A stretch of 20,961 nt of DNA. It comes from a virus. Within the stretch, counting starts at the first letter, position 1, and every line of letters starts with the position of its first letter. Positions 18,661 to 20,308 of this stretch are shown here, in pieces. The notes beneath the pieces were generated by a model that saw nothing but the letters and a program-made list of their open reading frames with translations, was not told the origin of the DNA and made no database searches. The position numbers and the translations under genes are program-made. The stretch spans positions 1-20,961 of IMG/VR virus record IMGVR_UViG_3300030107_002663; one strand, given 5' to 3'.

Positions 18661-19083
18661 ATGAGTACTTTTGATGGTTTAAATAAAGTTTTTGGTGAGG
18701 AACCAACAGAACTAGAACAACATGTAGAGAAGACAAAATCTCTTAGAACTGATCTTCCTGATATACAACAGGACTATGAGACTTCTCGTGCTCAACTACA
18801 TAACTTGGTAATGAAAGGACAGGAGGCTGTAGATGGTATACTTGATGTGGCACGAGCAAGTGATCATCCTCGTGCTTATGAAGTTGCTGGTCAACTCATC
18901 AAACACGTGGCAGACACGACAGACAAACTAATCGACCTGCAAGGGAAGATGAAAGAATTGGATAAAGAAGAGAAGAAAGGACCGTCTACAGTAAATAATG
19001 CTCTATTTGTTGGCAGTACTGCTGAACTTCAGAAGTTATTAAAGCAACAAAAAGATATAAATAATAAGACAGAAACAACATAG
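18661..19083 (+). CDS. 16: Small terminase subunit gp16
   Basis: Homologue of T4 gp16, the DNA-recognition/regulatory subunit that works with the gp17 motor-nuclease during packaging. Evidence: DYETSRAQLHNL (38-49), the ASDHPRAYEVAGQLI block (66-80) followed by a long amphipathic helix, TDKLIDLQGKMKEL (87-100), and the C-terminal NNALFVGSTAELQKLL (112-127). All three blocks align with T4 gp16 in order. Length is 140 aa against 164 in T4, the shorter N-terminus being the main difference. It is helical throughout, with no insert of the beta modules seen in its neighbours. Its 3' end contains a perfect late promoter box. gp17 is not adjacent; at least six small or medium genes come first. Confidence 0.9.
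   Translation: MSTFDGLNKVFGEEPTELEQHVEKTKSLRTDLPDIQQDYETSRAQLHNLVMKGQEAVDGILDVARASDHPRAYEVAGQLIKHVADTTDKLIDLQGKMKELDKEEKKGPSTVNNALFVGSTAELQKLLKQQKDINNKTETT
19056..19063 (+). promoter_or_regulatory. T4-type late promoter (TATAAATA), inside gp16
   Basis: An exact match to the T4 late -10 box TATAAATA, inside the gp16 coding sequence (in the KDINN codons) and 32 nt before the ATG at 19096. This nearly equals the 37-nt spacing of the promoter before the fibre gene, which supports both. It would start a unit running through 19096-20308 and probably on to gp17. Confidence 0.75.
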
Positions 19084-19095
19084 ACCCGACAAGAC

Positions 19096-19650
19096 ATGAC
19101 TGTTCTTAATGTATTAAGCACTAATTCCATAGCATCAGGTGCATCTGAATATCAAACTGTTCAGACTGGATTTTACAGAGTGAGTGCTACTGCTGCAGCA
19201 ACCGTACAATTCGGTGCTGGACCTGTTATTCAAATTTTGGCAGGAACTGCAGTTCTATTAAAAGGTAATGCAAAACCAGGACAGGCAAAGATTGTCAAGG
19301 CAGTAGATGATGCTACTGCTGATTATGTATTGGGTACTAACTATCCTCTAGAGACAACTAATACTCATCCATTTTCTGTGGGTGACTTTATTGCTGTAGT
19401 TAATAATAGCACTGACCCTGCTATCGATAGTAACTTCCTTTCTGCTGGTACTGCTGGCAAGAAGGTAACTGCTGTTTCGAGTAATGGTACAACTATTAGT
19501 ACTGATGTTGATTCATCATCTGCAAGTGCAGATTATACTTGGGATCCAGCTGGAGCTTCTAACAATCAAGCGATTGTTCAACGTGCTGTAAAGATTACTG
19601 CTGGCGGTAATGCTATTATAGTAGAAGAAGTACAGGTGGTCGGAGGTTAA
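19096..19650 (+). CDS. Hypothetical beta-rich protein (184 aa)
   Basis: Not recognised. The composition is that of a phage surface protein: rich in Ala, Thr, Val and Ser, no Cys, few charges, with many short strands and turns (TVLNVLSTNSI, QTGFYRVSATAAATVQFGAG, VIQILAGTAVLLKG, HPFSVGDFIAVVNN, KKVTAVSSNGTTIST). No signal peptide, membrane segment or coiled coil. It ends in a strand, AIIVEEVQVVGG. A late promoter lies 32 nt upstream of the ATG, so high late expression is likely. That suits a virion decoration or head/tail surface protein, but no homology supports a specific role. A strong SD for the next gene overlaps its last codons. Confidence 0.75.
   Translation: MTVLNVLSTNSIASGASEYQTVQTGFYRVSATAAATVQFGAGPVIQILAGTAVLLKGNAKPGQAKIVKAVDDATADYVLGTNYPLETTNTHPFSVGDFIAVVNNSTDPAIDSNFLSAGTAGKKVTAVSSNGTTISTDVDSSSASADYTWDPAGASNNQAIVQRAVKITAGGNAIIVEEVQVVGG
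19642..19646 (+). promoter_or_regulatory. Strong ribosome binding site (GGAGG)
   Basis: GGAGG with 5 nt to the ATG at 19652, inside the last codons of the upstream gene. It fixes the start of the basic protein and contrasts with the weak or missing SDs of the large structural genes. Confidence 0.8.
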
Positions 19651-19651
19651 A

Positions 19652-20308
19652 ATGCCTCTCGTTAATCAAAAGGCAGAGCGAATAGTCAGAGGAATGAAAA
19701 AAAGATCCTTTGATTTTAAAAGACTCTATGGAAAACGTGATAAAGAAGTCATGTATGCTACTGCCAATAAATTAGCACAAAAAGAAAATCTAAAGGTTAT
19801 GTATTATAAGGACTTTATTAATATCGTAGAAGGTAATCCTACTACACGAATGCTCACCAAGTCTAAGACAAAAGTGACTGGTAATATTTCAGCAGATCGT
19901 GGTAGTGATGAATCCAAGAATCGTACGAAACGTAAAGGTCTTGAAAAGGATTTAAAAAAGAAAGGCATTGGATATAAGAAAGGAGTCGGAGAATATAAGT
20001 ACGGTGACGGTAAAACTGGACGTGAAGTCTCATACCAAACTAGTAAACCCGACAAGATGTCCAAGCGTCGTTTCGGCAAAACCATGCGTCGTCTTGGTAG
20101 AAAGCATGGTCAAGAATCAGTAATAACAAAAGATAAAAGTAAACCAGCAAGGTTGCATGATACTGAATCTAAGAAACCAAAAAAATCCATTAATTTAGGT
20201 AAGTCTGCACCAGGTAAACATCCCAAGGGAGATGGAGAAACTTCAGGGAGTAAAGTAAGGTCAGGTAAACTATCTAAAACTAATAAGCCAGCGTACCACT
20301 ACAAGTAA
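19652..20308 (+). CDS. Highly basic protein with DUF3293-like centre (218 aa)
   Basis: No assigned function. The start is set by GGAGG at 5 nt. Residues 8-45 (AERIVRGMKKRSFDFKRLYG, then VMYATANKLAQKE) resemble an N-terminal motif common in cyanophage hypothetical proteins. Residues 75-170 have the order VTGNISADRG, KGLEKDLKKKGIGYKKGVGE, REVSY, RRLGRKHGQESVI (147-159) and KPARLHDTE. This recalls DUF3293, a small family with an LGR.(F/H)GQ..(V/I) motif and unknown activity. The C-terminal 50 residues are a Lys/Gly/Ser-rich, disordered tail. Lys plus Arg dominate the whole chain, so DNA or RNA binding, or packaging with the genome as an internal head protein, is possible. It lies between gp16 and the expected gp17. 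The DUF3293 link is from memory and moderate. Confidence 0.78.
   Translation: MPLVNQKAERIVRGMKKRSFDFKRLYGKRDKEVMYATANKLAQKENLKVMYYKDFINIVEGNPTTRMLTKSKTKVTGNISADRGSDESKNRTKRKGLEKDLKKKGIGYKKGVGEYKYGDGKTGREVSYQTSKPDKMSKRRFGKTMRRLGRKHGQESVITKDKSKPARLHDTESKKPKKSINLGKSAPGKHPKGDGETSGSKVRSGKLSKTNKPAYHYK

Follow-up and report, generated by a model that had tools for sequence, protein, structure and literature searches.

The gene at positions 19652–20308 (plus strand) of the window, by which we mean the whole 20,961-nucleotide stretch of viral DNA analysed here, probably encodes the precursor of an S-adenosylmethionine (SAM) lyase that is made late, carried in the virion, trimmed to 17.5 kDa and injected with the DNA. 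We give this reading a probability of roughly 0.68. Profile matches and a predicted structure together show that residues ~65–218 belong to the phage SAM-lyase family, in family assignment, fold and active-site conservation, and the gene product appears on this basis to be an enzyme that destroys SAM. An earlier note, made from the DNA letters alone, had described a DUF3293-like protein that might serve as an internal head protein or injected effector, and taken as a whole that interpretation is partly supported.

The gene and its setting

The window comes from among the structural genes of a cyanophage of the T4-like kind (Kyanoviridae relatives). The open reading frame (ORF) is real and conserved, opens with ATG and encodes a precursor protein of 218 amino acids in the T4-GC110 / phrog_12788 family (phrog_12788, 1.4e-111). 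The protein is, as had been claimed, very basic and Lys-rich (computed pI 10.36; K+R 61 vs D+E 22), and the good ribosome-binding site attributed to it can be read directly from the sequence as a Shine-Dalgarno GGAGG (19642–19646, plus strand), lying within the final codons of the preceding gene and 5 nt before the ATG. The ORF is the second gene after gp16 (18661–19083; phrog_445, 1e-60), the intervening gene being a DUF7243 gene (19096–19650, plus strand; phrog_682, from profile matches) that forms its upstream partner in the same operon; gp17 lies beyond the window, and P-SSM4 has the same gene order, ending in gp17. A short S-SZBM1 protein (87 aa), whose position was deduced to be that of the DUF7243 gene, has been detected in S-SZBM1 virions.

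The whole ORF protein is matched in 238 phage records at E ≤ 0.01 (tblastn), in 21 of them across 80% or more of the protein, and relatives are encoded on 395 IMG/VR stretches, so that conservation is above chance, even though many of the homologues counted are close relatives and the counts are therefore not independent. The orthologues make up T4-GC 110 and are labelled hypothetical in P-SSM4, P-SSM7, P-RSM4 and S-SSM5. No cellular relatives were confirmed by a profile search of genome contigs with alignment A1, an NCBIfam search of the ORF protein gave a chance-level match and nothing more, and phmmer with the single ORF protein found no match in the PDB. A match of residues 11–80 to the Bse634I restriction endonuclease (E 0.0072; 16.2 bits vs a cut-off of 27), seen in 1 of 23 homologues, was set aside as chance.

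A predicted capsid-targeting and protease site

Directly before the lyase domain stands the sequence YYKDFINIVE|GN. Its first ten residues, 51–60 of the protein (19802–19831, plus strand), resemble the capsid-targeting sequence of T4 internal proteins combined with a prohead-protease-type site, with a predicted cut at E60|G61. Cleavage there would leave a mature protein of residues 61–218 (19832–20305, plus strand), 158 amino acids long with a computed mass of 17.5 kDa and pI of 10.5. F55 and E60 are invariant in alignment A2, which comprises 23 diverse family members. Across the family, F..F followed by x-x-E and G/S/K/N is found in 203 of 206 ORFs, with [LIVM]xE|[GSA] in 201; of the three that lack a cleavage site, one comes from a truncated contig, and the other two resemble each other and differ from the rest at the N-terminus. 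A later scan found 80 ORFs, 66 of them outside the first set and 55 after removal of identical ones. The pattern with G/S/K/N after the Glu is present in just 11 of these 55, because most carry Thr there, and an N-terminal F..F..E (unanchored, near the start) occurs in 41. Two lyase homologues of 293 aa (L176 and L177) keep an E|SS junction with no F..F motif before it.

T4 ipII and ipIII start MKTYQEFIAE|A and ipI starts MKTFKEF; in T4 such an N-terminal sequence is a capsid-targeting sequence that is cut off by the gp21 protease (PMC9026906). Relatives of the window protein that lack its N-terminal tag open at the targeting site with a Met of their own, in the style MKTFQEFL...E: P-SSM2 begins MRTFQEFLQLCE|GG, the AG-345-L05 type MKTFKEFLEE|SS and the later-fetched type MKTFQEFMVECYSIQE|TS, while S-SZBM1 carries ITYREFIAE|GN inside its long protein. 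The likeness to T4 IPI, IPII and IPIII thus covers a targeting sequence of the MKT[YF].EF type cut by the prohead protease, as well as small size and basic charge (PMC9026906); outside the targeting sequence no sequence relation was seen. In T4 the motif is N-terminal, whereas in the window protein it is internal and follows a 50-residue tag. The cargo differs too: IPI, which is injected and counters restriction (PMC3012670), is a nuclease inhibitor, and the ORF's cargo resembles an enzyme. Taken together, the sequence strongly suggests that the ORF protein is packaged and cleaved.

The tag itself, NQ.AERI..GM...LYG.R.KEVMYATANKLAQK, occupies residues 1–47 (19652–19792, plus strand) and is predicted to be removed. 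It is helical in the AlphaFold2 model (residues 3–17 and 19–44), is conserved in alignment A3 and also occurs in the neighbouring T4-GC119 family when no lyase is present. A cyanophage-type motif at the N-terminus had been noticed earlier, and tblastn with residues 1–56 bears it out with 229 matching records, against 33 for a 125-residue central/C-terminal piece; the protein is modular. The second (lyase) module stands alone in P-SSM2 and forms the C-terminus of proteins of 472–769 residues in P-RSM6, S-WAM1, P-TIM40 and S-SZBM1. In S-SM1 and Syn9 no lyase was found at the locus and the same tag heads a long T4-GC119 protein, a comparison from which insertion of a lyase cassette after the tag seems likely. 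T4-GC119 modules match two S-CREM2 virion proteins detected by mass spectrometry (MS). The idea that the tag labels many proteins genome-wide was dropped, as it gives a single match per record, in 5 of 10 cyanophage records, at this locus only.

Long proteins at the locus (L098:3001–4488, L003:6100–7431, L088:1192–3501, L090:1426–3549, L285 and L291) resemble polyproteins, with short conserved peptides between xxE|A/G/S-like sites. Some of their modules match separate S-CREM2 virion proteins detected by MS, and in L285–L289 the order is targeting sequence, then a WHPD peptide module, then lyase.

Timing of expression and presence in virions

A T4-type late promoter, TATAAATA (19056–19063, plus strand), precedes the DUF7243–lyase gene pair and corresponds to the cyanophage late consensus NATAAATA (PMC2984593). 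One exact copy of TATAAATA is found in the window vs 2.3 expected by chance, so its mere presence proves nothing and was dropped as evidence; its fixed position alone counts. Of the 59 homologous loci whose upstream DNA reaches far enough, 55 have the consensus 540–620 bp ahead of the start, in keeping with the late promoter named in the earlier note. Among relatives beginning with an MKTF of their own, an upstream TATAAATA is present in 0 of 71 and 1 of 28, and the late-promoter argument is accordingly limited to gp16-linked genes. The T3 SAM lyase, in contrast, is the product of the earliest gene, the first protein made, and acts intracellularly (PMC8406200), whereas the ORF is a predicted late gene whose lyase is preceded by a tag and a putative capsid-targeting/protease site. 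A SAM-destroying enzyme made only late would be of no use in time to its producer cell, unless it were intended for the cell infected next, and the loading signal would offer a route there.

Virion data are available for two relatives. S-CREM2 ORF6, described as a SAM hydrolase, is represented by 19 unique peptides in purified virions (PMC10665884, Table 3). It is 37.6% identical to the ORF protein over 117 aa (E 6e-9), matches the SAM-lyase family PF23780 at E 2.3e-19 and has a targeting-type start, MKDFDSFLEEF. It differs in its length of 414 aa, its long C-terminal extension, the absence of an N-terminal tag and its genome position among nuclease and methylase genes. The S-CREM2 authors consider co-purification possible (PMC10665884). 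The S-SZBM1 homologue, a 707-aa fusion deduced from gene order to be S-SZBM1_194, is absent among the 30 virion proteins listed for S-SZBM1. The earlier suggestion of an internal head protein or injected effector is well supported by the T4-like targeting site and by the published virion MS of the S-CREM2 homologue, with a negative result in S-SZBM1.

These observations bear on the strongest alternative, in which an active, late-made SAM lyase works in the producer cell, for example in keeping progeny DNA unmethylated or shutting down host methylation, and is unpackaged or only incidentally trapped. The intracellular action of the T3 enzyme, the missing S-SZBM1 homologue and the caveat of the S-CREM2 authors all speak for it. 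However, the targeting/cleavage element abuts the lyase whatever precedes it, be it the lyase's own Met, the tag or 300–600 residues of modules, and the T3 enzyme is made first (PMC8406200), as opposed to the late promoter here. We regard action in the producer cell as unlikely, though it deserves to be kept in mind.

The targeting motif was also considered as a predictor of packaging in its own right. A strict F..F..E pattern after the Met picks out 5 of 52 MS-detected S-CREM2 virion proteins vs 0 of 167 others (one-sided Fisher p 6e-4), a test that is not blind, since the pattern was written after the S-CREM2 virion N-termini had been seen. The five are ORF6 (SAM hydrolase), ORF13, ORF14 (APH-like kinase), ORF136 and ORF154 (cytidylyltransferase). 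The pattern was then applied unchanged to T4, S-SZBM1 and P-SSM4. Among 75 typed T4 CDS it finds ipII and ipIII and no others, missing ipI; among 1234 S-SZBM1 ORFs of at least 50 aa it finds 4 distinct ones, including a 362-aa cytidylyltransferase that is the sole enzyme in the S-SZBM1 virion proteome as listed; and in P-SSM4 it finds 1 of 933, whose product resembles a cytidylyltransferase weakly (17.1 bits, cut-off 21). A cytidylyltransferase is present in S-SM1 virions as well (PMC3037559).

APH/protein-kinase-like and cytidylyltransferase-like proteins of S-CREM2, S-SZBM1 and P-SSM4 share the T4-internal-protein-like targeting start, in the forms VKRFDAFLTEE, MKNFSSFLTEA, MRFRQFIIEA and MKKFSAFLKEA (L209:10579–12846, minus strand; L211:26609–27469, plus; L219:2389–3477, minus; L232:15692–16843, plus), and the S-CREM2 and S-SZBM1 members of this set are reported in virions. 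The 'Cas9-like' nuclease of S-CREM2 (L209:7704–10313, minus strand; 869 aa), also found in virions, has an internal targeting-like RFASFMAEA near residues 18–27; it gave no Pfam match at E ≤ 0.01.

The lyase domain

PF23780 (S-AdoMet_lyase) matches residues 79–185 of the window protein at 27.5 bits and E 3.4e-6, which is 0.5 bit below its gathering cut-off of 28. All 23 members of alignment A2 match at E ≤ 0.1 (best 2.1e-19), and six divergent homologues searched singly scored 33.0–70.3 bits, every one above the cut-off. Together with the model (residues 76–170) and the VIA-align superposition, these matches place a putative SAM-lyase domain with a PII-like beta-alpha-beta-beta-alpha-beta fold at residues 76–185 (19877–20206, plus strand). 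When the A2 profile was run against all PDB sequences, one distinct sequence was matched, the Svi3-3 SAM lyase, and because E was 0.84 (weak alone) the residue register weighs more than the score: G113, Y115, E125, Q154 and E155 align exactly with Svi3-3 G56, Y58, E69, Q104 and E105. In the hmmsearch alignment to 6zm9, G113-E-Y115 (19988–19996) corresponds to G56/Y58, which make ribose and gamma-carbon contacts, E125-V-S127 (20024–20032) to the catalytic E69 and to S71, and Q154-E155 (20111–20116) to Q104/E105, all on the plus strand, with E125 and Q154 invariant in A2. In Svi3-3, E69Q and E69A almost abolish activity and Y58F and E105Q lower it; both G56 and Q104 are ligand-contacting residues (PMC7877911). 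The active-site pattern is kept in 203 of 206 family ORFs, the exceptions being a Ser-to-Thr change, a truncated contig and a Tyr-to-Trp/Ser-to-Ala variant, and in 52 of the 55 distinct ORFs from the later scan.

The AlphaFold2 model is of moderate quality (pLDDT 73, pTM 0.59; 23 sequences, single chain), and the beta-alpha-beta-beta-alpha-beta order is predicted at residues 76–170. Foldseek ranked phage SAM lyases first to fourth (best E 1.3e-3). With VIA-align, model residues 65–218 superpose on residues 3–152 of T3 SAM lyase chain 8bb1_E with Z 14.4 over 132 residues at 2.6 Å; a second T3 entry gave Z 14.3, Svi3-3 8.3 and the remainder at most 7.5. The resemblance to T3 SAMase and Svi3-3 (PF23780) therefore lies in the fold and in the G/Y/E/Q/E active-site residues, which are in register, and the T3 chains, of 147 and 152 residues, are close in length to the predicted mature form. 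The difference lies in sequence, with ~11–14% identity in the structural alignments. Phage SAM lyases of this family are homotrimers whose active sites lie at the subunit interfaces.

A relative that has lost catalysis or is merely incidental, and that persists as a basic internal head protein condensing DNA, would account for the Lys-rich composition and pI of 10.4, and T4 internal proteins are small and basic too (PMC9026906). Yet almost every homologue, even those ~28–38% identical, retains all five active-site positions, and a purely structural role is disfavoured because it would not require them; we consider a dead relative improbable. A shade less probable again is the identification as a SAM-AMP lyase, which would act against CRISPR by degrading the type III messenger and leave SAM alone. 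The SAM-AMP lyases (from C. botulinum, and the phage candidate AcrIIIB4) share the PII-type trimer fold and the catalytic Glu, and a phage example with an extra N-terminal domain exists (PMC12255297), but the structural match reaches only Z 5.8 (9gad; 5.7 for 9gab), so that the model is much nearer the T3 SAM lyase at Z 14.4.

The name DUF3293 has to be given up, although the observation that led to it was sound. The motif LGRKHGQESVI is present at residues 148–158, and since its QES holds the Gln/Glu of the putative SAM-lyase active site, it was a genuine lead under a wrong name. DUF3293 (PF11697) matches residues 86–157 weakly, at 14.8 bits (15 in the own-genome search) against a cut-off of 25 and E 0.045, whereas PF23780 is stronger on the same residues and the fold search returns SAM lyases. 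In its favour, 17 of the 23 aligned homologues match DUF3293 at E ≤ 0.1 (best 5.9e-4), but the five of six divergent homologues for which a match is listed also fall below the cut-off, and a DUF3293 protein of unknown function is the least credible reading. Because those 17 SAM-lyase homologues match DUF3293 weakly on the same residues, the bacterial DUF3293 proteins may, judging from these alignments, be distant relatives of PII-type SAM lyases.

Proposed mechanism

For the virion-carried SAM lyase that we favour, the following course can be envisaged. The precursor would be synthesised late, alongside head and tail proteins, and the tag (residues 1–47) and targeting sequence (51–60) would bring it into the prohead core. 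A gp21-type prohead protease would cut after E60, leaving a 158-residue, very basic lyase packed with the DNA. Ejected with the genome, the lyase would form its trimer in the cell and convert SAM to methylthioadenosine and homoserine lactone ahead of all phage gene expression, and the loss of SAM would starve restriction-modification, BREX and host methylation. Late synthesis and prohead-core targeting are suggested by the promoter and targeting sequences, and we infer the remaining steps, from packaging in this phage through cleavage and injection to catalysis, together with the defence purpose.

A broader proposal is somewhat better than an even bet: that in the T4-like phages of marine picocyanobacteria the T4-internal-protein-type sequence acts as a general enzyme loading tag, such that a ready-made enzyme set is injected and SAM is removed at DNA entry, ahead of phage transcription. 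The cargo would comprise the SAM lyase, a cytidylyltransferase, an APH-like kinase and perhaps the Cas9-like nuclease.

Significance

SAM lyases as such are not new, and a 2023 paper on S-CREM2 had put forward a SAM hydrolase carried in the virion to serve the same end (PMC10665884); among the matches listed it was the one directly relevant paper on SAM lyases in cyanophages, and for capsid targeting in cyanophages a T4 review alone came up. In a literature that leaves out most subscription papers and bioRxiv preprints, we found in print neither an assignment of the gp16–gp17 family as SAM lyases nor a T4-type capsid-targeting/processing site on this lyase and other cyanophage virion enzymes; the loading signal and the family-wide SAM-lyase assignment look new. 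A gene between gp16 and gp17 that is labelled hypothetical in many Prochlorococcus and Synechococcus phages thereby gains a testable biochemical function. If the reading is true, a virion-delivered SAM lyase would solve the timing problem of anti-restriction, being present from the start, whereas that of T3 must be made first. A recognisable loading signal would also allow the proteins that such phages carry into the cell to be listed from sequence only, and would let cargo loading be tested in the model system T4.
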